In this document: one piece after another, positions 1,377-42,393 of the stretch
Numbering within the stretch: the stretch's first letter is position 1
How the letters are laid out: every line of letters begins with the position of its first letter
IMG/VR virus record: IMGVR_UViG_3300030339_000012
Span: 1-64,000 of that record
DNA: 64,000 bases
Strand: one strand, 5' to 3'
Source of the DNA: a virus
Position numbers and translations under genes: made by a program
Notes under the pieces: generated by a model
Database searches by the model: none
Told to the model about the DNA's origin: nothing
The model's input: the letters and a program-made list of their open reading frames with translations, nothing else

Positions 1377-1392
1377 AATAACAAATAATAAA

Positions 1393-4030: not shown

Positions 4031-5149
4031 ATTTTTATAATATATTTTAATATCAAGTTCTATTTTTATTAATAAATCATTTAAATTCTTGATAATATCT
4101 TTATGTTTTTCTGATGCAGAAATTACATCAAATTTAAGAATTTTTTTATAAATTAGTATATCATTCTTATAATCTTCATAACGTAATCTATTATCATTTT
4201 TTACACCTAACTTAAATATTTTTTCTTCTATACTATTGGATAAATTAGTAATTTCTTTACTTTTAAATTTTATATACTTATCACTATTATTATAATCAAT
4301 TAATAATTTTGATATAATATTATATGTACTTGTCAATAATGAAACACTCATAACATAATTTCCATAGTATGTCATTGAATTATTAAAATCATCATCATTC
4401 AAACATTTTAAACTTAATTTTAAATTAAATTTCATATTACTGGTATAATATTCAAAATCTGTTTTTACAATTGAAATATATCTATTACCAACTTTAACAT
4501 ATTCTAATATTTTTCTATTATTTTCACATACCAAATTTAATTTATTGAGTTCTGATATTCTATTATCAAAATTTCTATAATCAGAAATTATATTATTAAT
4601 CTTTACTATTTTATTTAAGAATTTAGTTAATTTATTATCTAATACTTTCTGCTCATTAATAAGTCTGTTCATCCTAACTTTATTATAATCATTATCATTA
4701 TCTACATAAATTTCAGTGATAAATTTATTTAATTCTTCCTTAATATATTCTTCACAATAAGGATAATTATACTGTATATAATTTAGAATATCTGATTTAC
4801 TTTTTGATATTGATATAATTGAATTATCAATACTATTAACAATTTTCTTATATTCAATTAATGATTTATAAAGATTTTGTAATTTTATATAATAATTAGT
4901 TGTCACTATATCATTAGTTATATAATCAAATACAGATTCATCATAACTATTTAGAAATTCACAAGGCAAATCAAAATATGAAAACTTTAGTTCTTTGATA
5001 TTATTATTCAATGAGATTATATTATTTTTCAGAGTTTTAAAATTTCTAATCTGAATATATTTTAAATATATACAATTAAATAAAACATATAATATAAATA
5101 TCATAATTAGTAACAATGCAATAACTGATATTAAGATCAAAATTTTCAT
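4019..5149 (-). CDS. membrane-anchored coiled-coil protein
   Basis: The protein has 376 residues. One hydrophobic segment spans about residues 3-29 (MKILILISVIALLLIMIFIL and onward). It is followed by a long Lys/Asn/Ile-rich helical region with a heptad-like pattern and no Cys-rich or catalytic motif. It is probably an inner-membrane protein with one N-terminal anchor and a cytoplasmic coiled-coil body. No family is recognised. It is transcribed divergently from 5217. Confidence 0.7.
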   Translation of the reverse strand: MKILILISVIALLLIMIFILYVLFNCIYLKYIQIRNFKTLKNNIISLNNNIKELKFSYFDLPCEFLNSYDESVFDYITNDIVTTNYYIKLQNLYKSLIEYKKIVNSIDNSIISISKSKSDILNYIQYNYPYCEEYIKEELNKFITEIYVDNDNDYNKVRMNRLINEQKVLDNKLTKFLNKIVKINNIISDYRNFDNRISELNKLNLVCENNRKILEYVKVGNRYISIVKTDFEYYTSNMKFNLKLSLKCLNDDDFNNSMTYYGNYVMSVSLLTSTYNIISKLLIDYNNSDKYIKFKSKEITNLSNSIEEKIFKLGVKNDNRLRYEDYKNDILIYKKILKFDVISASEKHKDIIKNLNDLLIKIELDIKIYYKNKKM

Positions 5150-5188
5150 AAGTATTATAATATTAAAAAGGTTTTAAGTTTTTATTTA

Positions 5189-5200
5189 TTTATATATAAA
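5189..5200 (+). promoter_or_regulatory. candidate late-type promoter box
   Basis: TTTATATATAAA lies 17 to 28 bases before the start codon at 5217. It is one instance of an AT box that recurs at similar distances before 8582, 26992, 29962, 49192, 52004, 53304, 55770, 58758, 60876 and 61177. It resembles the single-box architecture of T4 late promoters, but that assignment is inferred. Confidence 0.4.
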
Positions 5201-5216
5201 GAAAAAACAGTCTATT

Positions 5217-5579
5217 ATGATTGATACAAGAAATGAAGATTTAGTAAAAAAATATTTTGATTTGGTTCAAGAAGAAATCAAAAGATTAATATCTCAAGAT
5301 AAAGAGATAAAGAAAAGTGAAATACAAACATTCAATGATGAAATATTCAATCAATCTGATGAGATAAAAAGTGAAATAAGTAATTATATCAATCAAGCAA
5401 CAATGAATGATTTAGAGATTAGTAAAATAGCTAAAACTCTTTATGATAAGTTTAAAGTACAGACTAAGAATAATGTTTTCAATCAAACTGATACACAGAA
5501 TGTACCTAATACCTTAATGGGTGAGAATAAGCACATAAAAACATTTGAAAAATTTAATTATGATAACAAAAATAGATAA
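5217..5579 (+). CDS. hypothetical helical protein with leader-like segment near its C-terminus
   Basis: The protein has 120 residues, charged and helical. The body has no recognised domain. Near the end, residues about 105-116 read KHIKTFEKFN, which looks like the shared leader and KFN tail run together. It then reads through to a stop 20 bases inside the next gene. This looks like a damaged gene junction (see findings). It heads a plus-strand operon running to 8499. Confidence 0.7.
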   Translation: MIDTRNEDLVKKYFDLVQEEIKRLISQDKEIKKSEIQTFNDEIFNQSDEIKSEISNYINQATMNDLEISKIAKTLYDKFKVQTKNNVFNQTDTQNVPNTLMGENKHIKTFEKFNYDNKNR

Positions 5580-5931
5580 TTATATATTAAATGAAGAGAA
5601 TAAAAATAATGAAAATTTAAAGTTAAAAATGACATTAGATGTATTTGATTTAGTTAAATTTATAGGTGGTAGTGACGATATAAACATAAACATTCCTTAT
5701 CGTAAGCATCATAATATAACTAAAATATATATAAAAAAATTTGAAGGTTTTGAACAAGATTTATTTGTAGAACTTACTACTATATTAGATAATTATACCT
5801 TTGATGTAGGATTTCTTAGTAATTTAAACATTAAAGAAATGACTAAAGTTTATAATTATTTAAAAAATAAATATCCTGATGAATACAATCAAATCATAGT
5901 CAAAAAAGAATCAGAAAAATTCAACATATGA
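5560..5931 (+). CDS. doubly tagged protein (leader MITKIDNYILNEE, tail SEKFNI)
   Basis: I choose ATG 5560 over a TTG 15 bases upstream because it restores a leader of the MIxxxxxYxLNE type shared with 6532 and 58758. The result is 123 residues. LNE fits the T4 prohead protease pattern Leu/Ile-x-Glu. The end EKFNI overlaps the next ATG (ATATGA arrangement). The core is unrecognised. Confidence 0.75.
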   Translation: MITKIDNYILNEENKNNENLKLKMTLDVFDLVKFIGGSDDININIPYRKHHNITKIYIKKFEGFEQDLFVELTTILDNYTFDVGFLSNLNIKEMTKVYNYLKNKYPDEYNQIIVKKESEKFNI

Positions 5932-6236
5932 AATATCTTAAAAAATTTGAAAGTAATTATGATATTATAAATGTAAAGAAATATGTCTTATGGAAAATGA
6001 AACATTTTATTTTTATATTAGAAGTTACTAAAATTTATGATAATTTAGTCCATATGAGAAGATTATATAAATATAGCGATGAATATGATAATATATCACC
6101 AACTGATATAATGGAATTTGATTTTTCATATGAAGACATATCAAAGAAAGTTATATACAGTTCAGATAATCTTAATGACTGTTTAGATTTAAATTTATTA
6201 GCGGCATCATTTATAACAGATAAATACAACATATGA
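5928..6236 (+). CDS. doubly tagged small protein, possible SH3-like fold (MKYLKKFE...TDKYNI)
   Basis: The protein has 102 residues. It has a canonical leader MKYLKKFESN and a Tyr variant of the tail (DKYNI). The middle (KKYVLWKM, a strand-rich stretch, then IEVTK-like) resembles the DYVL..II.V pattern of 6233 and 7553, suggesting a small barrel family. Start and stop codons overlap both neighbours by 4 bases. Confidence 0.75.
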   Translation: MKYLKKFESNYDIINVKKYVLWKMKHFIFILEVTKIYDNLVHMRRLYKYSDEYDNISPTDIMEFDFSYEDISKKVIYSSDNLNDCLDLNLLAASFITDKYNI

Positions 6237-6529
6237 TAACAAATTTTAAAATATTTGAAGAAGTTAAAGAAAGATCATCTAATGATAGATCAACTATACA
6301 AGATAATGATTATGTTATATTAGATCATCATTATTTTCATTATAAACTTCACGGAGATATTATAATAGGTAAAATTATTTCAAAAAATAAAAATACTTAT
6401 TTATCTAAATTTATAAAATTTGATGATGAATCATATAATGGTTACTATTCTGTAGACAAAATTTTATATTGGTCAGAAAGCAAAGAAGATATATTGGCGT
6501 ATTTATCAGCAAAAAAATTTAACATATAA
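6233..6529 (+). CDS. doubly tagged small protein, possible SH3-like fold (MITNFKIFEE...AKKFNI)
   Basis: The protein has 98 residues. After the leader and a charged linker comes NDYVILDHHYF, then IIIGKIIS and IKFDD strands, comparable to 7553 (GDYVLVDLPLI) and 5928. Small chromodomain- or SH3-like barrels have this rhythm, but no specific family is recognised. Confidence 0.72.
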   Translation: MITNFKIFEEVKERSSNDRSTIQDNDYVILDHHYFHYKLHGDIIIGKIISKNKNTYLSKFIKFDDESYNGYYSVDKILYWSESKEDILAYLSAKKFNI

Positions 6530-6531
6530 TA

Positions 6532-7230
6532 ATGATTACAAATTTTAATAAATATTCACTAAATGAAACATATGAATTATCTGGTAAGCACTCATTTTTA
6601 ACATACTTACAGATTGTATCAAATCATGATTATCATTTCATTTCAAATGACACATATAGAAAATTATATAAATACCATGTATTTTTTTCAACTGAAACAA
6701 TAACAGGAATAGAAGATTATGTAGATATATTCAAATATAAACACTCTTTATCTTCAGCATATGAAATATTATTACAAATAAAGGATAATAAATTAGCTTT
6801 CTTTTTTGGAATAAAAGAAAATTCTACATTGAGATATGGATTCTTAGATTTAGATACTCAAAGGAGTTATGTTGTTGGTGAATTTATGTTTACTAAAGAT
6901 TTTTTTGTTTCAATATCTAAATATAAATCAATGCAGTTTGTTAATAAGGTAATTCAAAATACAGATGCTAAAAAATTACCCATATTATCAAAGATAAAAC
7001 AAGATTGTGAGAATTTTTATAAAGGAAAAAAGAAAACAAAAGTGGAAATATCAGACAATAAAGTAATTATTTATATCACAAGAGATCAATTCACAGATGA
7101 TGATATAAATATGAATCGTCCATTTAGATCATTAGATAATTGGGCATCTAAAAAAATGTGGAGAAACAAAGTTGAATGCAGTGTTGATGATGAAGGGGAT
7201 CCAATAAAATTTATACTAATTGTAAAATGA
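6532..7230 (+). CDS. leader-bearing protein without the C-terminal tail
   Basis: The protein has 232 residues. The leader MITNFNKYSLNETY is intact, with LNE at 10-12, but the protein ends KFILIVK with no KFNI. It is one of four leader-only members in the window and larger than most. The core shows alternating strands and helices with no catalytic signature that I recognise. The stop overlaps the next MKYLKKFE start by 4 bases. Confidence 0.75.
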   Translation: MITNFNKYSLNETYELSGKHSFLTYLQIVSNHDYHFISNDTYRKLYKYHVFFSTETITGIEDYVDIFKYKHSLSSAYEILLQIKDNKLAFFFGIKENSTLRYGFLDLDTQRSYVVGEFMFTKDFFVSISKYKSMQFVNKVIQNTDAKKLPILSKIKQDCENFYKGKKKTKVEISDNKVIIYITRDQFTDDDINMNRPFRSLDNWASKKMWRNKVECSVDDEGDPIKFILIVK

Positions 7231-7556
7231 AATACTTAAAGAAATTTGAGTCCAATAATGATTATGGTGAATATTGGTCAGTTATTTATGATCCTATTAT
7301 TATTAGAAAATCTTTGAAAAAAATTGGATGTCCTGATAAAACAATAGATAGTATTATTTATTTTTTCTCTGATTCTGATATTTTTGATAGTGTATTATAT
7401 ATTGTAATGGAAATAAAAAATGATAATGTATATTGGGACGCATCATTAAATGATGGTACATATAAATATTATAAATATAATGGTGATATTAAACTATCAA
7501 AGAAAGAATTAGAAGAAGTAGAAATAGAAAAACACTCAAATAAATTTAATATATGA
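7227..7556 (+). CDS. doubly tagged YW-family paralog (MKYLKKFE...SNKFNI)
   Basis: The protein has 109 residues. It is a divergent member of a six-copy family (7227, 15223, 15549, 15890, 16229, 24078). It shares YW near residue 15, RKSLKKIGCPDKTI aligning with KSLKQI-CPKDRI of 16229, a Trp/Tyr-rich middle, and a Gly-rich strand followed by an acidic helix into the tail. It is closest to 24078, whose tail is preceded by a similar VEIEK/FKLEK stretch. Confidence 0.75.
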   Translation: MKYLKKFESNNDYGEYWSVIYDPIIIRKSLKKIGCPDKTIDSIIYFFSDSDIFDSVLYIVMEIKNDNVYWDASLNDGTYKYYKYNGDIKLSKKELEEVEIEKHSNKFNI

Positions 7557-7873
7557 AATACTTGAAAAAATTTGAATATAATGAATATGAATATGAAATA
7601 GGTGATTATGTTTTAGTCGATTTACCTCTAATAAAAGACTATTATTTTAATTATGCTACAAATGGAATTATTGATGATCATGCTATTATAATTGAGGTAA
7701 ATGATGATAAAGATGATGATCATGAAGATCATTATATTAGAACATATAAATTATTATTTTATAATGATAAAGTACTTGATGAAGTTAGACCAATATTAAT
7801 TACTAGAAAATTAACAAATACAGAAGCAAAAGATTTAATTTTTAAAACTAATTTAAAAAAATTTAACATATGA
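7553..7873 (+). CDS. doubly tagged small acidic protein, possible SH3-like fold (MKYLKKFE...LKKFNI)
   Basis: The protein has 106 residues. GDYVLVDLPLI starts the core, and IIIEVNDDKDDDHEDH forms an acidic His/Asp-rich loop that could bind metal, although that is only suggested by composition. The gene overlaps both neighbours through ATATGA junctions. Confidence 0.75.
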   Translation: MKYLKKFEYNEYEYEIGDYVLVDLPLIKDYYFNYATNGIIDDHAIIIEVNDDKDDDHEDHYIRTYKLLFYNDKVLDEVRPILITRKLTNTEAKDLIFKTNLKKFNI

Positions 7874-8499
7874 AATACTTAAAATATTTTGAAAATAATA
7901 ATATTATAGAACAGCAACCTTTTTATATTAGTAATAACACATTATATATATCAGATGATATGGCAAAATTATTAACTCCTACATATAATGATCTAAAGAA
8001 AAGATATAAAAATAATCAAAATGCTATTGACTATCAATTTCAAAAAAATGTTGATTTCTTAAATAACGAAAAAGATGAAAATGGACGCAATAAAGTCAGA
8101 GAAGTATATACTAATATTACAGTTAGATGGAGAAATATGTATGCTATGAGTATAATCATTAAATATCGTGGAAGTGGAAATACTATAGATAATAAATTTG
8201 GAAAATTTAATTATTATATTACTGGAAATTCAGGTGATAGTGAGATGCATGGAAAAAATATGAAAAGAGCAACAAGAGAATGTAATTATAATCTTATGAT
8301 AAAATTATATCCTATTGTTAAATATATTGATAATTTCATGAAAATTTTTGAATCTAAAGAAAAAGGATTTTTAGAAATAATTAAAGATTCATTAAATAAA
8401 GATATTATGTTAGCTAAATACGGGGTACCAAAGGAATTAAAAAAATATTTCAAAGGAGCAGAAGAAGCTATTATAAATTCGGATAAATATAATATATAA
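7870..8499 (+). CDS. doubly tagged protein (MKYLKYFE...SDKYNI)
   Basis: The protein has 209 residues and is the last gene of the 5217-8499 operon. The core is mixed, with a basic central part (KYRGSGN, MKRATREC) and no recognised domain. The tail is present although no gene follows for 82 bases, which again separates the tail from any translation-coupling role. Confidence 0.75.
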   Translation: MKYLKYFENNNIIEQQPFYISNNTLYISDDMAKLLTPTYNDLKKRYKNNQNAIDYQFQKNVDFLNNEKDENGRNKVREVYTNITVRWRNMYAMSIIIKYRGSGNTIDNKFGKFNYYITGNSGDSEMHGKNMKRATRECNYNLMIKLYPIVKYIDNFMKIFESKEKGFLEIIKDSLNKDIMLAKYGVPKELKKYFKGAEEAIINSDKYNI

Positions 8500-8581
8500 T
8501 ATATATATCATGATCTTGCATCATTTTATTTCTTATGAAATAGAGTTTTTTTATATATAGATAAAAATTAAATTATTAAAC

Positions 8582-11500
8582 ATGATAAATCAACAAAACA
8601 GTTTTGTGTCTTTAGCTGAACAACTAGCTGTATTAAATAAGAATTCAGTAGAAGTTATGACAAAATTAAATGATGTTGTAGCTAGTAGAAATTCTGTTGT
8701 AAACGTTAACTTAATGAATACAGATGGAACAACATCATCATATCAATTTCCAACAGTTGGTCAATTAAAAAATGAATTAGATATTGCAAATAGAAATATT
8801 CAGAAATTAGCAGGATTATCTGATAGTACAGCTTATGTATCAGATGGTACAACTATGAGAAGAATATATGTAGATGATTTGAATAGTGAGCCTAGTCCTA
8901 TTGATAGTTTAGATAGTATAAAAAAATTCACATCTATAAACAATTCTTTTTTTGAATCTCTTTATAATCCTATGTTAGCGATAGAACTTGATTTAACTGA
9001 TAGAATTGATCAAAAAGTAAAAAAGGTATTATCACGTAGATATATAATAAAATTTCAGACAGATCAATATGGTAATTTAACATCAGATGGTTCAAATTCA
9101 AAATCAGATTTTGAAACTAAATTCTTAAATAGAAATGATGTTTTTATTGATGATTTGACTTCATGGTACACAAATATAAAAAATACTGGTGTTTTTCATA
9201 GTAATCAACCTTATGATGAGCAAGTATTTGACTTAGATTATGATAAACTTCAATATTATGGAATATTTGATGTGGTTGGTATTGATAATGATACAATTAA
9301 TAGTAAAATGTGGTATGTATTAGGATCGATAACTTATTATGATTATACAGGTAACACTAGACAATTATCAGTAGGAGATGAATTAATAATAAATAAAAAA
9401 GATTCATCAACATTATGGACAATAAAGGAAGTTAGTACAGCTAAAAGTAATTATAGAGTTATTTTAGAGAGGGTGGAAGGGTTAGAACCTGTTCCAATAC
9501 TATCACAAGGATTGAAGATTTATAGTCCTGTATTACCAGAAAAAACAATAAAAATATCTATTGGTTATGATGAATACAATGTAGTTTTTATCAAACCTAT
9601 TAATACAGATTCAAATGTCATTTCATCAACATGGTCTTATGGTACATCTTTTTATAGTAACAATTTAGTTTTAGATACAAATAGTACTGTTTCTATGACA
9701 AAATTCTATAGTGATACTGTATTTGATTATGGTTCTATATTAAAAGATTTAATATCTAAAAATATACCTAGTAAATTTGGAATAACACCAAATGTACCAA
9801 CTTTAGTATCTAGTAATTTTAAAGTTTTACAAATAAATACACATTTAACTGATACAGCGGATTCAGCAAAAATTCAAAATTTAAATACTCAAAAAGTATC
9901 TATAAAATCACAATTAGAACAATTAAGTGATGCTATAGTTGAACAGAATAAAGAACTTAGTACTAAGCAATACAAATCAACATCAGATAAGCAGGCAAGT
10001 CAAAATCAATTAAATACTTTGATAAGTCAGCAATCATCATTAACTAAATCATACACATCGATAGTTAGTCAAATTACTGCTGAGAATACTGGTTCAATTT
10101 CAAGTGTAACTGCAAAATTTAGGGTAAGAGGTTTTTGGAGTATTCCAGAACCTATTATAATTAATACAGTAGGAGAACAACAAAAACAAGAAGTTGTTCA
10201 GTTTATTGTTCAATATAGATATAAGGCTACAGGAGGTTCTGAGCCTACAACAGAAGGATTTAATTTAAATCTTACAGAAACTATATACACAAATTCTACA
10301 TCTACTGGAGATATTACTGATCAAACTAAAGCATATCTTAATCCAAGTATAACAACTCAAAATGTTACTGAAACTGGATATTTTTCCAATTGGAATCAAT
10401 ATATGACAGATGCAAGGACAAGAACTTATAATAGAGCTTTAGATGTTTGGACATGGGATGTTGAAAATGTTTCTGATGCAAATTCACCTAAAGTTAATCA
10501 ATTAGACATATCTTTACATCCAAATGAAACAGTTGAAATTAAAATTAAATCTATATCAGAAGTTGGATTTCCAGACTCACTTATAGTATCTGATTGGTCT
10601 GACGTTATGACAATTGATTTTCCAACTGATCTTTCTCAAGTAGGTAACGAAAATTCTACTATTTTACAATCTGCTCAAAATGAACAAATATATTCACAAA
10701 TAGAAAGTGATTTTAATGCAAAAGGATTAACAACGCATCTTCAGCAATCATATTATGTTAATGATTTATATGTTGCTCATACTGATGTAAATGTAGGCAC
10801 ATCATTTAAAGATAGCTCAGGTAATATAATTATGTTAAATGATTATTTAAAATTATTAACAGATAAAATAACTGCTCTTGAAGAAATTGTATCTAATGCA
10901 AAAGGAGAACTTTCAATTAGTTTATATAAGAATTCAACAAATGTTACAATAGAAAATGGTGCATCTATAATTCAAAATATTACATGTGAAGATTATGCAG
11001 AATTATCTGGTACAACAACAAGAACATATTACAATAATATATATTCTTCTGATGATTTCTACATACAATTTGGAAATGTTTCACAATCTGCACAATTAGG
11101 ATTACTTTCATATAGAAAATATGTACCTACTGTTAATGGTGATAATAGATTTTATAATACACAATATTCAAATGGATCATTAGCAACTTATATTGATTCA
11201 GAAGATATGCTTAGAACACAAGTAGATAATCAATTTATTTGGATTTCTGATGTATCAGGAACAAATGCAATATATAATTCAGGAAAAACATATAATTCTA
11301 ATGGATTAGGACAAGTTTTGTACTCTAAAAATTGGAATGTTGGATTAACTGGAACTACAACACCAAATTCAGGAGGTACTTATTCAACTCCAATAAATAT
11401 ATTTAATGATGTTAATTGGACTGGAGTTACTTGGAGTGCTGACAATGATTATCAAACTGATTTTCCTGTTACGATACATCCACATATTGATAATATTTCA

Positions 11501-29961: not shown

Positions 29962-31968
29962 ATGAGTGAATGGATATTGGAATATGAAAATGGTGGAAAC
30001 ATAAGAAAAAAACTAAATGACTTAAAATATACAGTTGATTCAATTGTTGAATCTGGAAGAACATCTACATCAGGAACAGATGGTACAACAGGTATCTCAG
30101 GAACAGATGGAACATCAGGAACATCAGGTAGTTCTGGAACATCAGGAACATCAGGTAGCTCAGGAACATCAGGTTCATCAGGTAGCTCAGGAACATCAGG
30201 AAGCTCTGGCTCATCAGGAACATCAGGTTCATCAGGAAGCTCTGGCTCATCAGGAACTTCAGGTACAGATGGAACATCAGGAAGCTCAGGAACATCAGGA
30301 AGCTCTGGTTCATCAGGTAGCTCAGGATCGTCAGGTACAGATGGAACATCAGGTTCATCAGGTAGCTCAGGATCGTCAGGTACAGATGGAACATCAGGTA
30401 GCTCAGGTTCATCAGGTAGCTCAGGAACATCAGGCACAGATGGTACATCAGGTACATCAGGAAGCTCTGGCTCATCAGGTAGTTCTGGTAGTTCAGGAAC
30501 ATCAGGCACAGATGGTACATCAGGCACAGGCTTTGATACAGTAACTAATTACTCAAATAATAGAATATTAAAATCTGATGGTACTACAAACGGCGCATAT
30601 GCTGATAGTGGATTAACATATAATGGATTAACATTAGAAGTAAATGGAGGAATTAATTCAACTGAAAATATAATATCAAAAGGAAGCATAATTTCTGCTA
30701 TTGTATCAGTAACAGGAGGTACATCAAATCAATTTTTAAAAGCAGATGGTTCTATTGATTCAACATCATATTCTAATACTAATCATAATCATTATCAATT
30801 ATATCAACCTAATGGATTAAATCCTTTTGTATATACTGATAACGGAGGATCATTTCATATTGATGGAAATATTATACAGTCAGGAACAACTTATGAAACT
30901 CATTCTGAACAAATATTTACAACGAAAGATTATATAATATTAAGAAGTGGAGCAACAACAGGATTATCAGAAGGTGAATATACTGGATTTGAATCTGTAA
31001 AATATGATGGATTGAGTAATGGTAGATTAGTTTTTGATAATCATGGTATAGCTAGAGTAGGAGATATTGGATATGAACAACCTCTATCTACAAGAGAAGA
31101 AATTCCAACAGATAATTATTTGGCTATTTGGAACTCTGGCAAAACAAGATTTGAATCTATAAATCCAATAGATTTACCTGTTTCAACACAGACTATAAAT
31201 TTAATTAGTGATGAGACTATTAGTAGAATAAGCGGAGATACTATATTAACTAATTTAATAAGTGATGAAACATTCAATAGACTGTCTGGTGATACTTCAT
31301 TAACAAGCATAATAAGTGATGAAACATCTAATAGAATAAGCGGATATACATCATTAAATAATTTAATAAGTGATGAAACATTCAATAGAATAAGCGGATA
31401 TACATATTTAAACAATTTAATTACAGGAGAAACATTTAATAGAATTTCTGGTGAAACATCATTAACAAACTTAATAAGCGATGAGACTATTGACAGAATA
31501 AGTGGAGATACACAATTGAATAACTTAATTACAGGAATAACACAAAATATTATTAATTATATTCCTTATACTGGTTCAACTTCAAATGTTGATTTAGGTA
31601 ATAATAATATTTCAGCCAGTTTATTTATTAAATCAGGAGGAACATCATCTCAATTCTTAAAAGCTAACGGTACGGTAGATAGTAATTATTATATAAATGC
31701 AACAATAATAAATACAATATCTATATTAATTTTAAATTGGTCTAGTTCTGTAAATGCGAACGGTTTTTATTATTATACAATATCAGATACAAATGTATCA
31801 ATAACATCATGGATAGATGCAGTATTTTCAAATTTGAACTCATCTGATGTTTCAAGTTCTGGAATACAACCATCTATAACAACAGCATCAGGAAGTTTTA
31901 TAATAGAATCAACTTCTGTACCAAAAACTGATTTAACATTAACATACAAAATAATAGGAGGAATATAA
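29962..31968 (+). CDS. tail fibre with collagen-like Gly-Ser-Ser/Gly-Thr-Ser repeats
   Basis: The protein has 668 residues. A short coiled N-terminus (IRKKLNDLKYTVDSIVE) is followed by about 150 residues of GSS, GTS and GTD triplets from residue 37 on, a triple-helix-type shaft. Next come fibre domains with SxQFLKADGS motifs, a segment TTKDYIILRSGATTG common in phage fibres, six 18-residue repeats (LISDETxNRISGDTSLxN), and a final beta domain. There is no chaperone or peptidase signature. It would form a trimeric fibre. The Ser/Thr-rich shaft is a plausible target for the glycosyltransferases encoded downstream. Confidence 0.82.
   Translation: MSEWILEYENGGNIRKKLNDLKYTVDSIVESGRTSTSGTDGTTGISGTDGTSGTSGSSGTSGTSGSSGTSGSSGSSGTSGSSGSSGTSGSSGSSGSSGTSGTDGTSGSSGTSGSSGSSGSSGSSGTDGTSGSSGSSGSSGTDGTSGSSGSSGSSGTSGTDGTSGTSGSSGSSGSSGSSGTSGTDGTSGTGFDTVTNYSNNRILKSDGTTNGAYADSGLTYNGLTLEVNGGINSTENIISKGSIISAIVSVTGGTSNQFLKADGSIDSTSYSNTNHNHYQLYQPNGLNPFVYTDNGGSFHIDGNIIQSGTTYETHSEQIFTTKDYIILRSGATTGLSEGEYTGFESVKYDGLSNGRLVFDNHGIARVGDIGYEQPLSTREEIPTDNYLAIWNSGKTRFESINPIDLPVSTQTINLISDETISRISGDTILTNLISDETFNRLSGDTSLTSIISDETSNRISGYTSLNNLISDETFNRISGYTYLNNLITGETFNRISGETSLTNLISDETIDRISGDTQLNNLITGITQNIINYIPYTGSTSNVDLGNNNISASLFIKSGGTSSQFLKANGTVDSNYYINATIINTISILILNWSSSVNANGFYYYTISDTNVSITSWIDAVFSNLNSSDVSSSGIQPSITTASGSFIIESTSVPKTDLTLTYKIIGGI
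30070..30534 (+). repeat. short tandem coding repeats (GSS/GTS/GTD triplets)
   Basis: Nine-base units based on TCAGGA/T, AGCTCA and ACATCA repeat imperfectly through this stretch. Synonymous differences between units show selection at the protein level, but long identical blocks remain (for example the units ending ACAGATGGAACATCAGG). The array can expand or contract by slippage, changing shaft length. Confidence 0.85.
31201..31524 (+). repeat. six tandem 54-base repeats encoding LISDET...RISGDTSLxN
   Basis: Six consecutive 18-residue units with period 54 bases, starting at Leu codon 31201. Leu/Ile and Ile at fixed spacing suggest a coiled or beta-helical stalk. The next, partial unit begins at 31525 (LITGITQNI) and breaks the pattern. 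Confidence 0.8.
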
Positions 31969-31969
31969 T

Positions 31970-34093
31970 ATGTCAGGAATAATAAGATTACCAAGTCAAA
32001 CATCAATATCATCATCACCAGTAATAACACCGATAATACCATGGACCCCACAACCAGATTGGATAGATATTTCAGATACTAGTATAAATGAGATTAAATT
32101 GCTTGTAGCTGATGATTGTATCGCATATTGTTTTAACGTTATAACATCAACTGGGTCAGTATATACTATTGATTGGGGTGATGGAATCGTAACAACTAAT
32201 AATATTAGCGGAACAAATTATCAGCATAAGTATGTAATTGGTACTGGGCAACCTTGTTCTCTCGGGTATACAACATTTGTGATTAGTATTCGTAGTGTAA
32301 TTGGGAATCTTAGTACGTTTGCCATAAAAGCTCATACACTTACTAAATCTACTCAAATACAAAAAATTTTATATGCGAATATTATGAATGCTATTTATTT
32401 AACAACTTATAATAGTATGTTTTATAGTAACTATTCTTTATTCTCTCTTCCTTTTTTGGAAAGTGTAATCTTTCCGTTAAATTCTACAGGTCTATCAATA
32501 AATTCAAGTTCTATGCTTAATAATAGTGGAGTGATATCAATAGTATTACCATTAGATTTTAATTTAATTACAGATTCAAGTTACATGTTTAATAATTGTA
32601 CTAAGTTGAAATCAATAGTTATGCCAGTATCATGGGGTGCAAATAAAAACACCAGTTATATGTTTCAAAATTGCGCAAAATTACAATCAATTACATTACC
32701 ATCTAGTTTTAATTTAGTTACAACCTGCACATATATGTTTTCACGCTGTGATATTTTAATTGACGTAAATTTTTCTTATTGGGGTAATGTTACGAATACA
32801 AGTTATATGTTTTACGTTTGCCCTTATATATCTTCAATTATATTACCATTATCTTGGGGTAAAGTAATAACAACTAGTAATATGTTTGCCTTATGCCCAA
32901 AATTAAAAAGCATAAGATTTCCGTCATCTTGGGGAAGTGTAAATACTATTACTTATATGTTCTTTGCGTGTAATTCTTTAGTGTCAGTATACCTACCTGA
33001 ATGGGGAAGTGTGACAAATGCTAGTTATTTATTTTATAACTGTGCTTCTTTACAGAATGTAAGCTTTCCAACATCTTGGGGAAACCTTAATACTATAGCA
33101 TATATGTTTTATGGATGTACATCTTTAGTGTCAATAAAATTTCCAACATCATTTACAAACGTAACTATCGCTACTTTAATGTTTTATGGATGTACCTCTT
33201 TAGTGTCAATAATTTTTCCACCATCTTTTGGAAGCCTAACAACAGTTCAAAATATGTTTCAAAGTTGTACATCTTTATCTTCAATTGCTTTCCCAGATTG
33301 GGGAAATGTTACAAACGCAAATGGTATCACTTATGGGTGTTCTTCTTTAGTTTCTGTAACATTTCCACCAACATGGGGTAACGTTACGGATGCGAGTCAA
33401 ATGTTTTACGTGTGTAATAGTTTATCATCAATAATATTGCCATCGTCTTGGGGAAAAGTTACAAATCTTAGTACTATGTTTTGGTATTGTAGTTCTTTAA
33501 CAAAAATAGAATTACCAACATCTTGGGATCTAGTTACTAGTATTTCAGTTATGTTTTCACATTCTTCTATTTCTTCATTAGTACTACCGTCTTCATGGGG
33601 TGTCGTGAGTAATATTGGGGGTTTTGCGTCTAACATGCTAAGATTACAATCAATTGTTTTGCCATTAGCATTCGGAAATATAATTGACGCTAGTAATATG
33701 TTTTCTGGCTGTCCTAATTTACCGAATAACCCTGGCTTTGAATATATAGGTAGCTTAACTTCTCAATGTAATTTCAATGGGGCATTTCTTTCTACTGAAT
33801 ATGTTAATGGTGAAATGATTTTAGATTCTAAAATTTCTTCGATTACGATTGCTGGGACTTCAGGAATTCCAAATCAAGTTACAAGCATAAGGCTAACTAA
33901 TACTGGTAGTACATTCACTGGTTCTTCTCCTCAAGTTGATGTTTCTTATTGTAATTTAGATGCGATAGCCTTAAATACATTATTTGGAGACTTACCAACA
34001 TTATCTGGTAAAGCAATAAAAATTACAGGTTGTTTAGGATTTTCTACTTGTGATAAAACTATTGCAACAAATAAAGGTTGGACCGTATCCTAA
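31970..34093 (+). CDS. BspA-type leucine-rich-repeat adhesin with PKD-like domain
   Basis: The protein has 707 residues. After a Pro/Ser-rich start there is a PKD-like segment (YTIDWGDGIVTTNN ... HKY, about 63-86). From about residue 150 to 600 there are around 18 imperfect repeats of about 23 residues, SLxSIxLPxSWGxVTxASxMFxxCxSL. This is the TpLRR/DUF285 pattern of Bacteroidota and mycoplasma surface proteins. Each unit holds a Cys and a Met-Phe. It is likely a receptor-binding protein at the fibre tip, starting one base after the fibre stop. Codon choice (GGG, ACG, TGC, CGC) differs from its neighbours, hinting at recent acquisition. Confidence 0.8.
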   Translation: MSGIIRLPSQTSISSSPVITPIIPWTPQPDWIDISDTSINEIKLLVADDCIAYCFNVITSTGSVYTIDWGDGIVTTNNISGTNYQHKYVIGTGQPCSLGYTTFVISIRSVIGNLSTFAIKAHTLTKSTQIQKILYANIMNAIYLTTYNSMFYSNYSLFSLPFLESVIFPLNSTGLSINSSSMLNNSGVISIVLPLDFNLITDSSYMFNNCTKLKSIVMPVSWGANKNTSYMFQNCAKLQSITLPSSFNLVTTCTYMFSRCDILIDVNFSYWGNVTNTSYMFYVCPYISSIILPLSWGKVITTSNMFALCPKLKSIRFPSSWGSVNTITYMFFACNSLVSVYLPEWGSVTNASYLFYNCASLQNVSFPTSWGNLNTIAYMFYGCTSLVSIKFPTSFTNVTIATLMFYGCTSLVSIIFPPSFGSLTTVQNMFQSCTSLSSIAFPDWGNVTNANGITYGCSSLVSVTFPPTWGNVTDASQMFYVCNSLSSIILPSSWGKVTNLSTMFWYCSSLTKIELPTSWDLVTSISVMFSHSSISSLVLPSSWGVVSNIGGFASNMLRLQSIVLPLAFGNIIDASNMFSGCPNLPNNPGFEYIGSLTSQCNFNGAFLSTEYVNGEMILDSKISSITIAGTSGIPNQVTSIRLTNTGSTFTGSSPQVDVSYCNLDAIALNTLFGDLPTLSGKAIKITGCLGFSTCDKTIATNKGWTVS

Positions 34094-34176: not shown

Positions 34177-35949
34177 ATGATTGAAAATGCAAATATTTCA
34201 GTACATCAAATCAATACTGTAACAGGAGATTTAATTGGTAATACTAGAAAAATACTACAATGTTTAAAATTAGATCATAGCTATGACTCTTATGTAGACA
34301 TATCAGTGTTTCCAGAAACTTCAATTAGTGGATATTGTTGTGGTTCTCTTTGGGATCGAGAAGATTTCATTCGTGATCAAATAACAAAATTGAAAGATAT
34401 AGAAAGATATAGAAAAGAATTGAATATGTCAGGAATTATCGTGATAGGATTTGTTTCATCTCACGGTAATAACAGAAATGGATTTCCAGTATTAAAAAAT
34501 TCAGTAGCTGTTATTGATAATAATGGTATTCGTACATATGATAAACAATTATTAGCTGATACAGATCATCACGAAGATAGAAAATATTTCACAGAAGGAA
34601 CTGAAACTAAAGTTTTTGAAGTTTATTTACCAAATGTAGGTAAAACTATAATTGGAACTCCAATATGTGAAGATGCATGGTTTATGAATCATCACAGAGA
34701 TATTCCTCAAGAAATGGTTAACATGGGAGCAGAAATTTTGATTATTCCAAATCAATCATATTTTTATTATGGAAAGCAAAAAATTAGAAAAAATCTTTTT
34801 TCTAAAATAGCTAAAAATAATATGGTTCCTGTTGTTTCTGTAAATTCAGTTGGTTGTGGTGACATCGTTAAAAATATTATAATTTATGATGGTGGATCTC
34901 TTGTTTATAATAGTTATGGAAGATTAATTAAAGAACTACCTAAATTTGAAGATGCAAATTCAAATTTCAAAATATCAGATTGTGATCCAATTATAGGAAG
35001 TGATGATAGTAAATATAAAGAAATAACTGATGCTATTCTATTTGAGCAAAAAGAATTCTTCAAATTGTCAGGAATTAAAAATGCTCAAGTTCATGTATCA
35101 GGAGGACTTGATTCATCTATTGTAGCAGCATTAGTTTATAAAGCTATGGGTAAAGAACATACCATATTTATTTCAAATCCATCATCATTGAATACTAAAT
35201 CAAGAGATTATGTGACTCAATTAGATGAAAAATTAGGAACTACTACCTATTGGCAACCAATTCAATCTACTGTCAATGAAATATTAGAAGTTGATAAAAT
35301 TCATATGAGTGATGCTCCTGAATTAAGTGATACAGGTAAAGCATCAATACATGCAGTGTTAAGAACTGTACTAGGATTAGAAGATACTCACAGATTTAAA
35401 AGTGGCATTGTTTCAACAGGTAATCATACTGAGATCGTTTTGGGTTGGGCATCCTTCCATGATATTGGTTCAATTGGTGTTCATGCTATAATTGGAGATT
35501 TAACAAAAGTTGAATTGTATGAATTATCAGATTATATTAACACTGAATTATATAAAGATGAAATTGTGCCTTTTGATTTATATAATGGAAAATTTAAACC
35601 TGCCGCAGAATTACCTGATGCAAATGAAGATCCAATTGATTATTGGGTACAAAGTGGAATATGTGCATCTTTAATTCGTGATAGAATGACAAGAGATGAT
35701 TTAATTTTGAATTATAAAAATCATTCATTGAATATTGACTATTTTCCTAAAATGGAGGAAGTTTATAAATATGATATTAAACAATGGGATGAGCAAGTTA
35801 ATTTTGCAGTTAGTAAAATGAAAATATCAGTATATAAAGCTGCTCAAAGTTCTCCAATTGTTATCATGAGTCCAAGGAGCAGAGGATTTAGTAATCGTGA
35901 AACATTAATTAATAAATATACACCAATTAATACAGTATCTTTAGATTAA
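34177..35949 (+). CDS. nadE: glutamine-dependent NAD+ synthetase
   Basis: The protein has 590 residues, full length for the two-domain form. The N-terminal nitrilase-type glutaminase shows the triad: Glu in FPETSISGY (E47), Lys in YDKQLL (about 124) and Cys in TPICEDAWF (about 165). The C-terminal ATP-pyrophosphatase domain carries SGGLDSS at about 308-314, plus STGNHTEIVLGW and a GDLTKVELYEL segment. It makes NAD from nicotinate adenine dinucleotide, ATP and glutamine. It may refill NAD during infection, when host defences or the phage's own ADP-ribosyltransferase consume it. It has its own promoter and terminator. Confidence 0.95.
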   Translation: MIENANISVHQINTVTGDLIGNTRKILQCLKLDHSYDSYVDISVFPETSISGYCCGSLWDREDFIRDQITKLKDIERYRKELNMSGIIVIGFVSSHGNNRNGFPVLKNSVAVIDNNGIRTYDKQLLADTDHHEDRKYFTEGTETKVFEVYLPNVGKTIIGTPICEDAWFMNHHRDIPQEMVNMGAEILIIPNQSYFYYGKQKIRKNLFSKIAKNNMVPVVSVNSVGCGDIVKNIIIYDGGSLVYNSYGRLIKELPKFEDANSNFKISDCDPIIGSDDSKYKEITDAILFEQKEFFKLSGIKNAQVHVSGGLDSSIVAALVYKAMGKEHTIFISNPSSLNTKSRDYVTQLDEKLGTTTYWQPIQSTVNEILEVDKIHMSDAPELSDTGKASIHAVLRTVLGLEDTHRFKSGIVSTGNHTEIVLGWASFHDIGSIGVHAIIGDLTKVELYELSDYINTELYKDEIVPFDLYNGKFKPAAELPDANEDPIDYWVQSGICASLIRDRMTRDDLILNYKNHSLNIDYFPKMEEVYKYDIKQWDEQVNFAVSKMKISVYKAAQSSPIVIMSPRSRGFSNRETLINKYTPINTVSLD

Positions 35950-36059: not shown

Positions 36060-38525
36060 ATGAAAATATTGATAATTTTGCCACATGCCAGTACTGGCGG
36101 ACTTCCTTCTGTGTCATTAAAAAGAGTAGAATCTTTAATAAATACAAATGATGTCTATGTAATTGAATATAGACAAATCTCTTGGAGTTTTGTAGTACAA
36201 AGGAATAGACTGATTGAATTATTAGGAGATAAATTCATTTCACTTGGAGGAATGGAAGATGAAACAAAACGTGATTTTTTTCAAGAAATAATTAATACTA
36301 TTAATCCTGATATTGTTCATATGGAAGAAATACCAGAATTATTTATTTTTGGAATGAGAAATGATCATGTGAGTTGGTTATATAGAGATGATAGACCATA
36401 TAAAATAATAGAAACAACTCACACTTCAACTTTTGATATTAATAAAAAAATATACTTTCCAGATAAGTTTTTATTTGTATCTAAATATTCACAACTACAA
36501 TATAGTAAATTTGACATACCATCTTCTGTTGTTGAATATCCAGTAGAAAAATTAGCATGTAATAACGGATTAGCAATTGATGTATTGAAATTTGATCCTG
36601 AGTATTTTCATGTTTTGAATGTTGGATTATTTACATCAGGAAAAAATCAAGGATATGTTTTTGATATAGCAGAAAAATTGATAGATTATAAAATACAATT
36701 TCATTTTGTAGGCAATCAAGCAGAGAATTTTTCTGATTATTGGAGTCCATTATTAAATAAAAAACCAGCCAATTGTATAATTCATGGAGAAAGAAGTGAT
36801 GTTGATTTATTTTATCAAGCATCTGATTTACTAATTCATTCATCTTTACTAGAACTTAATCCATTAGCTATCAAAGAAGCAACATCGTATGATTTGCCTG
36901 TTTATTTAAACAATCTTAATACATATTTAGATACATATGATTTATATAAAAACATTAAATATTTGACAATGAATGTTGATAAAGATTCTAAAAGAATATT
37001 AGATAATTTCAATATAAAAAGATTAGATGATAATATAACATTTCAAGATATATTATTAAAAGAGTATAATAATACTCTTTATATAAATAAAACAACTCAA
37101 AGAATAGTAGAACCACAATATGATTATAATATTGATTTCATTAAAGGAGCAAAGGTAGAAATTGTTGGTGATTCTCCATCTGAATTTTATGTTGAAATAT
37201 TAGATAAAAATACAAATGAAATTATATACAAAAAAATGTTAAACAACAATAATTGGTGTCGTACTAATTATGAATGTTATAAAGAATACAAAATTAACAT
37301 ATTTAAAAATAATAAATTAGTAATTACTCATGATTTTGATTTAACTAATAAAAATGTATTGATAACATTAGAAAGCAAATCAATAGGAGATACATTGGCA
37401 TGGTTTCCATATATTGAAGAATTTAGAAAAAAGCATAATTGTAAAGTTCAGTGCTCAACATTTTGGAATAGTTGGTTCATAAATCAATATTCAGAAATAA
37501 CTTTTGTTGAACCAGGACAAGAAAACACTGAAAATTTGTATGCAAAATATAAAATAGGTTGGTATTCTCCATATGACAACAATAGAAATCCTATTGATTA
37601 TAAAACTATTCCTTTGCAAAAAACAGCAAGTGATATACTTGGATTAGAATACGAAGAAATTATACCAAAAATTGAAATTCCTGAAGGAATTAGACCAATC
37701 AAAGAGAAATATGTTTGCATTGGTCAATTCTCAACAGCTAACTCTAAGCACTGGCATTATCCTTGCAAAGATAGCAATAAAGGCTGGCAAATTTTAGTTG
37801 ATTGGTTTAATACACAAGGATATAAAGTTATGGTAATAAGTAAACAACCAACCAATCTTAAAAATATAATAGATAGAACTGGAAATTTTCCTATTGAACA
37901 CAGAATCAATGAATTAAAATGGTCTGAATTTTATATTGGTATTGGATCAGGATTAAGTTGGTTGGCATGGGCTGTTGGTAAGCAAGTAGTAATGATGTCA
38001 GGGTTTTCTAAACCTTTTTGCGAATTTAAAACTAATAACATAAACATACATAATTTTAAAGTGTGTAATGGATGTTTTAATACACACAAATTTGATCCAG
38101 GAGATTGGAATTGGTGTCCGATAAATAAAAATACTGATAAGCAATTTGAATGCTCTACTAGCATAACACCAGAAATGATAACTGATAGAATAATAGAGTC
38201 AAAATTAATTGAAAATCCAAAGAAATTTGATTTTAAAAAATATGATGTTAAATATAACTTAGATAAAAACAATATAAATATAACGTATGATAAAAATGAA
38301 AATAAATTGATGTTATATTATAATGGAGAAGATATGCAAGCATTAAATATTGATATTAAAGATTTAAAATCAAACAAAATATATTATACTTTATCTGAAA
38401 CATCATTAAATAAAAATAGTGTGATTTGGTGCATACCAAAAATAAATTTAGCTGAAGATACAAATAAGTTGAATATAGTATTTTATGAAAAAAATAAAAT
38501 ATTAGAAATACAATATGGAATTTAA
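36060..38525 (+). CDS. bifunctional glycosyltransferase: GT4-like half plus TibC-like heptosyltransferase half
   Basis: The protein has 821 residues. The first 300 residues are a GT-B enzyme: MKILIILPHASTGGLP start, LNVGLFTSGKNQGY, HGERSDVDLFYQASDLLIHSS and an E-x7-E-like LELNPLAIKEA. A linker domain follows. The last part (about 430-720) resembles bacterial autotransporter heptosyltransferases such as TibC: SIGDTLAWFPYIEEF, WHYPC, GIGSGLSWLAWAVGK and VVMMSGFS. The family's iron site is present as four Cys, C669-x2-C672, C686 and C698. It probably adds heptose or another sugar to a protein, with the neighbouring fibre as a possible acceptor. Confidence 0.85.
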   Translation: MKILIILPHASTGGLPSVSLKRVESLINTNDVYVIEYRQISWSFVVQRNRLIELLGDKFISLGGMEDETKRDFFQEIINTINPDIVHMEEIPELFIFGMRNDHVSWLYRDDRPYKIIETTHTSTFDINKKIYFPDKFLFVSKYSQLQYSKFDIPSSVVEYPVEKLACNNGLAIDVLKFDPEYFHVLNVGLFTSGKNQGYVFDIAEKLIDYKIQFHFVGNQAENFSDYWSPLLNKKPANCIIHGERSDVDLFYQASDLLIHSSLLELNPLAIKEATSYDLPVYLNNLNTYLDTYDLYKNIKYLTMNVDKDSKRILDNFNIKRLDDNITFQDILLKEYNNTLYINKTTQRIVEPQYDYNIDFIKGAKVEIVGDSPSEFYVEILDKNTNEIIYKKMLNNNNWCRTNYECYKEYKINIFKNNKLVITHDFDLTNKNVLITLESKSIGDTLAWFPYIEEFRKKHNCKVQCSTFWNSWFINQYSEITFVEPGQENTENLYAKYKIGWYSPYDNNRNPIDYKTIPLQKTASDILGLEYEEIIPKIEIPEGIRPIKEKYVCIGQFSTANSKHWHYPCKDSNKGWQILVDWFNTQGYKVMVISKQPTNLKNIIDRTGNFPIEHRINELKWSEFYIGIGSGLSWLAWAVGKQVVMMSGFSKPFCEFKTNNINIHNFKVCNGCFNTHKFDPGDWNWCPINKNTDKQFECSTSITPEMITDRIIESKLIENPKKFDFKKYDVKYNLDKNNINITYDKNENKLMLYYNGEDMQALNIDIKDLKSNKIYYTLSETSLNKNSVIWCIPKINLAEDTNKLNIVFYEKNKILEIQYGI

Positions 38526-38532
38526 AAATTTA

Positions 38533-38561
38533 TATATAACGAAAAGAAAAATCGTTATATA
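38533..38561 (+). promoter_or_regulatory. inverted repeat over promoter box and start codon
   Basis: TATATAACGA (38533-38542) and its reverse complement TCGTTATATA (38552-38561) flank nine A/G-rich bases. The right arm reaches the ATG at 38561. The left arm includes a TTTATATATAA box. A hairpin in the mRNA leader could limit translation of the next gene. Confidence 0.4.
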
Positions 38562-40600
38562 TGAGTTATATTAAAATTAAAAAAATACTTAAAGATGATG
38601 TTGAAACTCCAGAGAAAGGTTATATTTATTTTGGATATGAAGATACAACAGTAAGTAGTGGAAGTACTAAAGGATTTTGGATAAAAGATGATGATGGTAG
38701 TGAAGCATCATATATATTGGAAGGATATTCAAATGCCCCAATTATTTCAGATTTTGATCCTACAAGTGCATATAATGGTGATTTGATAACAATATATGGA
38801 ATAAATTTTGTTAAAAATACAGTTGCATCTTTTAGCGGAATAACAGGAGTAACAACATTAGTTTCTCCTAATCAATTAAATGTTGTAATACCTGATCTTA
38901 CTAATTATGACAATGAAGTTGAAGTGGTATTAAAATCTCCATTAGCGACAGGTCCATCAGCAAAATATAAAGTATTTAAACAAAATAATAAACCTATAAT
39001 AACAATAAGTCCTACTAGCGCAGATATAAATTCTACTATAACAATAGAAGGATTATATTTCATACCTGGAAAAACAGAGTTATTTTTTGTACCAGTAACT
39101 CATGCAATTACTACTGTTATTAGTTCAACAAAATTAACTGCTATAGTACCATTATTAACACTTGGTCTTACTCAATTATATCTTCAAACAGATCTTGGAT
39201 TGATAAATCCTGGACAAAGTTTATTTGCAAACATAATAATTAACAATGGAACAATTCCTTTATTTGAAAGTTTTTATCCATCATCTGCAAGTCAAGGTGG
39301 ATATGTAGATATATTTGGAGCAAATTTTGATGTCTCAACTACATTAGTTCATATTGGTCCTACTCAATCATCAAAAATAACTTTTATAGATTCTGGACAT
39401 ATAAGAGCAGATATTTCAAATGATACTCCTATTGGAGATACAATAATTAGAGTTGATGAAATATCAAAATCTGGATTTACAGTTTATGGATCTACTAGTA
39501 CTCTAATTCCAACTATAACAAATATAAATCCATCAGTTTATCCAGGTAATACAGTAATTCTAACAGGAACTAATTTAAATGTTCCTTTGACTATTACATT
39601 TAGTGGAGTTATATGTAAATCAACACCTATAAATTTCAATTCTTGTTCGATTTATATAGGAACTGATGTTACGCCAGGTATAAATAGCGTTATAGTAATT
39701 AACAAATACGGATCATCATTACCATATTCATATAATTTACTAACAATTGGAAATTTATCATTAAGTAGTTTTAGTTCTACACATATGAAAAGAGGACAGC
39801 ATTCAATAGGTGTATATGGCACTGGATTTATAAACAGTCCATCAATGAGTGTTTATGTAGGAAATGTATTATCAAGGTTTTCATATAATAGTCCAACAGC
39901 ATTAACAGTCCAGATATTAAATTCTACATCAACTAATGACACAATACCAACTGGTAATGTTGATATTAGAGTAGAAAGTATAAACGGTAATTATACATTA
40001 AATGGTTTCACTGTTGATACAACAAATCAACCTATAATATCAAAAATAAGTCCTATATTTGGAAAATATGGTGATTCTATTGATATATATGGTAGTCTAT
40101 TATCAGGAGGACTTATTAGTTTTGGAACATCTTATCCAGGTACTTATGGTGTAACATCTACAATAGATAATAGTCATTTAAAAGTAATTGTACCATCTGG
40201 ACTAACAACTTCAGGTATGAATGAAATAATGAATGTTTATGCAACAACATCTAATGGTTCTATAACATATTCACCGTTTGAATCTTATATACAAGCGACA
40301 TCAGCTCCATCTATTTTAAGTTTTACTCCAATGGATGTCACAGGATCTACTTCATCAAAAGGAACATTAATTACCATATCAGGACAAAATTTTTCTAAAT
40401 ATTATACTGACGCTTACATTAGTATAGCGCCATCTGGTAATCTTAAATATATATATTTAGATTCACAAGAATATATATCTGACACAGAAATAAGAGGTAT
40501 TATTCCTAAAACGTTAGGATATATTGGCTCATCAATTATTAAAGTTGTAACATCTGCAGGTGTTGATCAAGAAGCGAATTTATATATATCAAAACTATAA
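38561..40600 (+). CDS. IPT/TIG-repeat virion surface protein
   Basis: The protein has 679 residues. After an N-terminal 60-residue domain come about seven IPT/TIG immunoglobulin-like domains, each opening with the type PIIxxFxPxSAxxGDxITIxGxNF (for example near residues 63, 146, 238, 320, 400, 488, 580) and closing with a VxxPxxxxxG strand. Such domains often decorate fibres or capsids and bind surfaces or glycans. It lies between glycosyltransferase genes and ahead of a terminator. Confidence 0.8.
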   Translation: MSYIKIKKILKDDVETPEKGYIYFGYEDTTVSSGSTKGFWIKDDDGSEASYILEGYSNAPIISDFDPTSAYNGDLITIYGINFVKNTVASFSGITGVTTLVSPNQLNVVIPDLTNYDNEVEVVLKSPLATGPSAKYKVFKQNNKPIITISPTSADINSTITIEGLYFIPGKTELFFVPVTHAITTVISSTKLTAIVPLLTLGLTQLYLQTDLGLINPGQSLFANIIINNGTIPLFESFYPSSASQGGYVDIFGANFDVSTTLVHIGPTQSSKITFIDSGHIRADISNDTPIGDTIIRVDEISKSGFTVYGSTSTLIPTITNINPSVYPGNTVILTGTNLNVPLTITFSGVICKSTPINFNSCSIYIGTDVTPGINSVIVINKYGSSLPYSYNLLTIGNLSLSSFSSTHMKRGQHSIGVYGTGFINSPSMSVYVGNVLSRFSYNSPTALTVQILNSTSTNDTIPTGNVDIRVESINGNYTLNGFTVDTTNQPIISKISPIFGKYGDSIDIYGSLLSGGLISFGTSYPGTYGVTSTIDNSHLKVIVPSGLTTSGMNEIMNVYATTSNGSITYSPFESYIQATSAPSILSFTPMDVTGSTSSKGTLITISGQNFSKYYTDAYISIAPSGNLKYIYLDSQEYISDTEIRGIIPKTLGYIGSSIIKVVTSAGVDQEANLYISKL

Positions 40601-41637: not shown

Positions 41638-42393
41638 ATGAATATAGGAATAGTTGTATTAGCTACAAATGCTTATTTTGTGTTAGGAATAAGATTTATT
41701 AAAAGATTTATGAATTTTTACAAAGGTGATAAAAACATCACCTTCTATTTTTTCTCGGATAATAATCCAAAAAATTATATACCTGATAATATTGATGTTG
41801 AATATTTTCATGTGACTAATAATAATTGGGTAGATGGAACAAACTTAAAATTTACATCTATATTATCAATTAAAGATAAATTAAAAAGTGATTATCTATT
41901 TTATTTTGATGCTGATACTAATGTAAATAAAGATTTTATTGAAGATTGGTTTATTGGAGATTTAGTTGGTGGTCAGCATTATGGAGATCAAGATTGGATG
42001 AAAAATGAAAAATCATTTGATAGAAATCCATCATCAAAAGCATATGTACCATTTGATACTAAATTATCACAAATGTATTTTTATGGTGCATTTTTTGGAG
42101 GTAATTCTAACAATATGATAAATTTTTGTGAAACTATGAGATATTATCAATTAGAAGATAAAAAAATACCTTATGAGCCTGGTGTGAATGATGAAAGTTA
42201 TATCAATAGATATTTTCATTTTAATCCACCTACAAAAGTAGTATTATGTCCAGATTTTTCATTTGTAATTAGTGATAAAGGTGGTATTGGTGAAACTAGA
42301 GATATAAATTTGAATATCGAAGAACTCAAAAAAGAATTATTAATAAATAAAAATAACTCTATTGATATACAGAGTAATAAATTAATTTTATGA
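41638..42393 (+). CDS. family GT6 glycosyltransferase (ABO-like)
   Basis: The protein has 251 residues, the size of bacterial GT6 enzymes. LFYFDADTNVN (DxD at 91-93), YFYGAFFGGNSNNM (148-160) and NDESYINRYFHFNPPTKVV (184-202) match the conserved blocks of the alpha-1,3-galactosyl/N-acetylgalactosaminyl transferase family, including the HDES-like segment (here NDES). GT6 enzymes add alpha-linked Gal or GalNAc. They occur in vertebrates, some Bacteroides and rare phages. The stop overlaps the next gene by 4 bases. Confidence 0.85.
   Translation: MNIGIVVLATNAYFVLGIRFIKRFMNFYKGDKNITFYFFSDNNPKNYIPDNIDVEYFHVTNNNWVDGTNLKFTSILSIKDKLKSDYLFYFDADTNVNKDFIEDWFIGDLVGGQHYGDQDWMKNEKSFDRNPSSKAYVPFDTKLSQMYFYGAFFGGNSNNMINFCETMRYYQLEDKKIPYEPGVNDESYINRYFHFNPPTKVVLCPDFSFVISDKGGIGETRDINLNIEELKKELLINKNNSIDIQSNKLIL

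Follow-up and report, generated by a model that had tools for sequence, protein, structure and literature searches.

Locus and architecture of the fusion protein

The window analysed here is a 64,000-nucleotide stretch, positions 1 to 64,000 of the IMG/VR virus record IMGVR_UViG_3300030339_000012. The full record is 97,084 bases long and carries genes for phage DNA polymerase, helicase, PhoH and fibre proteins, bearing out the phage origin supposed in an earlier note on this DNA. At 58% identity its polymerase resembles that of LR756501, a 735-kb phage encoding a homologous fusion. The central feature of the locus, recognised in that note as a GT4-like transferase joined to a TibC-type heptosyltransferase, was confirmed as one forward-strand gene (Table 1). 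A BspA-type leucine-rich repeat protein (LRR_5, DUF285; 31970-34093, +) is encoded directly after the tail-fibre-like gene, and repeat proteins of similar appearance occur close to the HldE pair in L225. Between fibre and fusion, here and in L002 and L003, stands a glutamine-dependent NAD synthetase (NAD_synthase and CN_hydrolase domains; 34177-35949, +), possibly a counter to NAD-depleting defence.

Table 1. Positions in the window of the fusion gene, its parts and neighbouring genes
Feature	Position	Strand	Basis or remark
Tail-fibre-like protein, proposed acceptor	29962..31968	+	668 aa; Pfam Collagen 76.7 bits; PHROG tail fibre
51 uninterrupted Gly-X-Y triplets, proposed glycosylated stretch	30073..30531	+	inside the fibre gene
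GT4-TibC fusion protein	36060..38525	+	821 aa; single uninterrupted ORF, ATG start
GT4 half	36060..37094	+	aa 1-345; Pfam domain, HMM 324 bits
EX7E motif, E265-E273, GT4 half	36852..36878	+	sequence
TibC-type heptosyltransferase half	37116..38198	+	aa 353-713; TIGR04414, TibC alignment, structural match
D444 codon, equivalent of catalytic base TibC Asp110	37389..37391	+	alignment
Beta-hairpin thumb position	37839..37889	+	9 residues shorter than TibC
Iron-finger segment, C669, C672, C686 and C698 codons	38064..38153	+	alignment with TibC
C-terminal beta domain	38262..38519	+	aa 735-820; predicted strands, pLDDT 84-92
TIG-repeat protein, alternative acceptor	38561..40600	+	Pfam TIG 81.4 bits; directly downstream of fusion
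GT6-family glycosyltransferase, possible further glycan extension	41638..42393	+	Pfam Glyco_transf_6 67.2 bits

The profile search proposed for the second half returned the NCBIfam model TIGR04414 (hepto_Aah_TibC) at 307.2 bits against a curated cut-off of 200 (E 1.5e-91, aa 355-711), and the PDB sequences of TibC (4rap, 4rb4) aligned with aa 356-708 at an E value of about 1e-56. The first half likewise proved to be a transferase, with the hallmarks of a retaining GT4 enzyme: Pfam Glycos_transf_1 matched aa 176-291 at 34.1 bits (cut-off 26.4), and an EX7E motif is present whose first glutamate, E265, is almost invariant among 19 fusions. This half belongs to the same family as a separate GT4 gene in other phages (HMM 324 bits; best identities 42-49%), so that the fusion joins genes that adjoin or nearly adjoin elsewhere, a sign of joint function. 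Full-length fusions with 66-100% identity occur on twelve further contigs (L002-L012, L016), and the gene is therefore not an assembly artefact. Judging by protein lengths, members of the window clade have the C-terminal beta domain and the 700-aa fusions lack it; PHROGs offered no useful family for the fusion protein. Related arrangements include L035 and L037, where GT4, a middle piece and TibC follow one another in three successive frames (7986-10821) and thus represent the fusion in an unfused or frameshifted form, and the cultured Microcystis phage Mel-JY01 (PP395634.1, L051), in which a product labelled FkbM (4750-8430) holds a GT4, a methyltransferase-like and a TibC part.

An AlphaFold model built from the 19 fusions reached a mean pLDDT of 80.9 and a pTM of 0.54, the latter so low that the relative arrangement of the two halves in the model is unreliable. 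The first 21 PDB hits in a structural search with this model were all TibC chains (4rap_A, target TM 0.85, E 1.7e-31), and GT4 enzymes, MshA among them, came next; a fold of the second half outside the GT-B heptosyltransferases, named in the earlier note as grounds for rejection, was not found. Although the Pfam model TibC_1st scored only 15.5 bits on the window protein, below its cut-off of 27, the N-terminal beta-barrel characteristic of the TIGR04414 or TibC-Aah family is present, as strands at aa 354-425 of the model and in the full-length match to 4rap.

Conserved active site and shortened thumb

Residues shown or proposed to matter in TibC (D110, T226, K230, R286, W305, C339, C342, C358 and C370; PMC4358343) are retained. 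D110, T226, K230, R286 and W305 align with D444, T559, K563, R615 and W634, giving the window protein both the catalytic Asp and the Thr/Lys/Arg/Trp donor site of the family, and Asp occupies the D444 position in 87/87 viral rows. The four cysteines that the earlier note had listed at 669, 672, 686 and 698 align with TibC Cys339, Cys342, Cys358 and Cys370 and are kept in all 87 viral rows; the GSGLSWLAWAVGK and MSGFS segments it had pointed out are also present. The putative iron site is intact in the form of these four conserved cysteines. Where TibC has Pro300, which selects ADP-D,D-heptose, the window protein has Gly629.

The thumb, in contrast, has changed. In TibC this beta-hairpin holds the dodecamer together, and mutation of its tip, F265/V266, leaves inactive dimers. 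The alignment places a nine-residue deletion in the window protein at that tip, which makes a TibC-like ring dodecamer doubtful. The thumb region measures 24-25 residues in 52/52 classical bacterial rows, 15-27 in the viral clade and 16 in the window protein. Most unfused viral proteins have a thumb region of about TibC length with a different sequence, so that its loss marks the window clade and some others but not the whole branch.

An initial search found relatives at 46 viral loci, and a TibC-domain profile search confirmed at least 574 viral and at least 319 bacterial stretches as relatives. Among 88 dereplicated viral loci, 29 encode long proteins (>600 aa) and 58 unfused ones. A 125-row tree groups every viral row with 17 bacterial ones on a single branch (SH-aLRT 100, length 0.78), leaving E. 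coli TibC and the remaining bacterial rows outside it. The earlier assignment to the autotransporter heptosyltransferases thus stands as far as the TIGR04414 family is concerned, but the enzyme falls in a sister clade made up mostly of viral sequences and not in the autotransporter-modifying branch itself; with its shortened thumb, and with no TIGR04415 target repeat found (below), it is not an autotransporter heptosyltransferase (BAHT) in the strict sense. Two contigs binned as bacterial (L053, a Winogradskyella MAG, and L069, MAG Cli_8) have tail sheath genes beside TibC and are probably phage.

Tail-module context and collagen-like arrays

Unfused viral TibC genes occupy a conserved tail module, consisting of a giant collagen-like fibre, a protein with GT4 and further transferase domains, GT4, TibC, a small protein, tail sheath, tail tube and a baseplate protein. 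Among the 42 such genes with enough flanking sequence, 29 lie within 150 bp after a GT4 gene and 35 share their locus with a tail sheath gene. The upstream fibres of relatives consist of Gly-X-Y repeats in which X and Y are mostly Ser or Thr, and in the triplet array of the window fibre Ser or Thr fills X in 50 and Y in 43 of the 51 triplets. A strict Ser/Thr Gly-X-Y pattern matched 16 times in the 97-kb record, all within the fibre gene among the matches listed.

Association between enzyme and arrays was assessed against control loci with a related tail sheath, pooled from the TibC and sheath searches. Ser/Thr-rich Gly-X-Y frames were found in 26/35 TibC-positive and 2/29 TibC-negative tail-sheath loci (p 3e-8, a value that overstates independence, there being only five independent pairs on the sheath tree, which point in the same direction, 3.1 versus 0.1 on average, without significance). 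For any Gly-X-Y fibre the counts were 28/35 and 5/29 (p 8e-7), with array and Ser/Thr thresholds chosen after the first loci had been seen. Strict arrays occurred in 16 of 24 TibC-bearing viral records, against none with a reversed-pattern control; the eight records where none was found include that of the window-clade member G003, a 94-kb fragment. Separately, the reverse strand of LR756501.1 (W01) carries 1130 strict matches within its 735 kb, an exceptionally high amount of collagen-like sequence, and Mel-JY01 encodes, ahead of its GT4 and TibC product, an unannotated 1016-aa Ser/Thr-rich collagen-like frame (L051, 1-3049), in place of which an antisense CDS, 739-2298 (-), had been called.

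The association extends to bacterial chromosomes and is not random. In 10/14 bacterial loci of this clade, a gene for a Gly-Ser/Thr repeat protein, in most cases one that begins with a signal peptide or like a lipoprotein, lies less than 2 kb from TibC, compared with 0/52 classical TibC-type loci (p 5e-9). Of six whole bacterial genomes with strict arrays, five (3.6-4.7 Mb) have all of them inside the TibC locus. Across 91 genomes of one bacterial family, arrays were present in 6/8 with clade TibC and 2/83 without (p 1e-6), and one of the latter two arrays contains stop codons. Two of the six have the array that the pattern detected far from TibC, so the link reaches beyond the immediate neighbourhood. 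Small secreted proteins or lipoproteins with Gly-Thr-Ser or Gly-Ser-Ser stretches were also seen beside TibC in methanotrophs and other gammaproteobacteria (L062, L064, L066, L070, L071), and antisense ORFs mask some bacterial arrays of this kind.

The classical acceptor repeat TIGR04415 was detected in 3/3 classical genomes, but in 0/24 viral records (the 97-kb record among them being a fragment) and 0/4 clade bacteria. The idea that the enzyme modifies serines of secreted bacterial adhesins calls for revision, their strand-loop-strand repeat not having been found in the 24 viral records, and a collagen-like fibre of Ser/Thr-rich Gly-X-Y triplets is the likely acceptor. The broader proposal that virion parts are glycosylated is supported by this context.

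A candidate two-headed O-glycosyltransferase for the tail fibre

We propose, with a probability of roughly 0.6, that the fusion, produced in the course of phage infection, is a two-headed protein O-glycosyltransferase whose TibC half heptosylates the phage's own collagen-like tail fibre and whose GT4 half extends the glycan. The TibC half would transfer heptose from ADP-heptose to Ser (or Thr) in the triplet array of the fibre, the GT4 half would add a second sugar onto the heptose, and the nearby GT6 enzyme would perhaps add a third. Such a division of labour, with one half priming and the other extending, was suggested in the earlier note and is plausible. The resulting fibre would be stiff, resistant to proteases and coated with glycans, in analogy to the glycosylated collagen-like filaments of spores. 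We further infer that the shortened thumb fits a shift in substrate, away from a beta-helix within a dodecamer ring and towards a thin triple helix or the unfolded chains that form it.

The heptose donor would come from the host, maybe topped up in relatives by phage enzymes. GmhA and HldE make ADP-heptose. GmhA was found at 251 bits in LR756504, above the cut-off of 209, and at 202-208 bits, just below it, in four window-clade records (G001, G002, G004, G006). An HldE adenylyltransferase scored above cut-off in the record of the window-clade relative L016, an HldE kinase domain occurs in the 735-kb LR756501, and another record holds a split HldE pair. No ADP-heptose gene was found in the 97-kb record; this record is a fragment, and a host whose LPS contains heptose would in any case provide the donor. 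Candidates set aside were GmhB, for which all matches were weak (61-64 bits, cut-off 150), and a 'cytidylyltransferase like protein' taken for HldE in Mel-JY01, a record without a TIGR02199 match. It is conceivable, though we consider it a minority possibility, that the TibC half acts on the fibre with a different sugar nucleotide, or that the GT4 half has a separate acceptor and the fusion only co-regulates the two. The position of Arg286, which reads the adenine, is substituted in 22/87 viral relatives, so that donors may vary within the clade. In the window clade, nevertheless, the ADP-heptose site retains its Arg, Thr, Lys and Trp, and GmhA or HldE is encoded by relatives; 16/19 fusions also match a GT9-like profile.

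It counts against the fibre as acceptor that its gene lies 4 kb upstream of the fusion rather than adjacent to it, and that, of the neighbours conserved in the window clade, the TIG protein is the nearest. This protein is long, repetitive and Ser/Thr-rich, and its gene, separated from the fusion by 35 bp in the window, follows it in all five window-clade lineages examined, with L002, L003, L007 and L016 as the other carriers. An acceptor other than the fibre, most probably this TIG protein or else the leucine-rich repeat protein, is nonetheless unlikely, as outside the window clade TIG proteins do not accompany TibC (cluster 14, five loci), whereas Gly-X-Y arrays do so in viruses and bacteria alike. 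The leucine-rich repeat protein was rejected as a conserved acceptor, inspection having revealed no counterpart beside TibC in L003, L007 and L016.

Modification of a host surface glycan during infection (LPS core or O-antigen), for instance to exclude other phages, appears quite improbable. Phage glycosyltransferases often act on such glycans, those of pelagimyophages, together with rfaE, have been read in this way (PMC7029224), and the TibC half does resemble the LPS heptosyltransferases of GT9. Yet all LPS heptosyltransferase models fall far short of the TIGR04414 score (44 against 328 bits in L153), and the cysteine finger, which TibC needs for TibA modification (PMC4358343), is invariant. 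The tail-module position in relatives also argues against host glycans, as does the fact that TibC and Ser/Thr Gly-X-Y proteins go closely together, in bacterial chromosomes too. DNA glycosylation was considered and finds no support in family or context.

On balance we favour a wider reading as well, in which the mostly viral TibC branch switched acceptor from beta-helical autotransporters to Ser/Thr-rich collagen-like triplets, part of the branch having lost the ring-forming thumb. Huge phages and phages with a tail sheath would coat their tail fibres with heptose-based glycans, using the enzyme alone or fused to GT4, while a few bacteria would apply it to secreted Gly-Thr-Ser repeat proteins and lipoproteins. 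If true, this would make O-glycosylated prokaryotic collagen available in a genetically simple system, explain the Ser/Thr-rich collagen-like fibres beside glycosyltransferases in many environmental phages, and give a reason unrelated to LPS for the presence of glycosyltransferases in such phages.

Comparison with known systems

To our knowledge, glycosylation of phage tails is hardly known. Within the open-access literature, and thus outside subscription journals and preprints, we found no paper linking TibC-type enzymes to phages or collagen-like proteins and nothing on glycosylation of the phage virion proteome; the open-access paper containing both 'heptosyltransferase' and 'collagen-like' merely cites unrelated work. 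Phage-encoded glycosyltransferases of mycobacteriophages such as Maravista (PMC11256854) are, as here, thought to modify virion proteins, but there the proposed acceptor is the capsid protein, and the abstract mentions neither a TibC-type enzyme nor a collagen-like acceptor.

The closest relatives are TibC and Aah (PMC4358343; 4rap, 4rb4; TIGR04414), which share the fold, catalytic Asp, ADP-heptose site, four-Cys finger and N-terminal beta-barrel. They lack the GT4 fusion and are encoded in autotransporter operons instead of a phage genome, their partners have strand-loop-strand target repeats of which none was found for the viral enzyme in 24 viral records, and they are separated from its clade by a long, fully supported branch. 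The LPS heptosyltransferases of GT9 (WaaC, WaaF, WaaQ) have the GT-B fold and the ADP-heptose donor type in common with the window enzyme, but give only weak scores, are without the cysteine finger and use a different acceptor. For the proposed product the nearest parallel is the BclA-type spore filament, in which collagen-like Gly-X-Thr/Ser repeats carry O-glycans on a surface filament, although other enzymes and sugars are involved and the system is non-viral.
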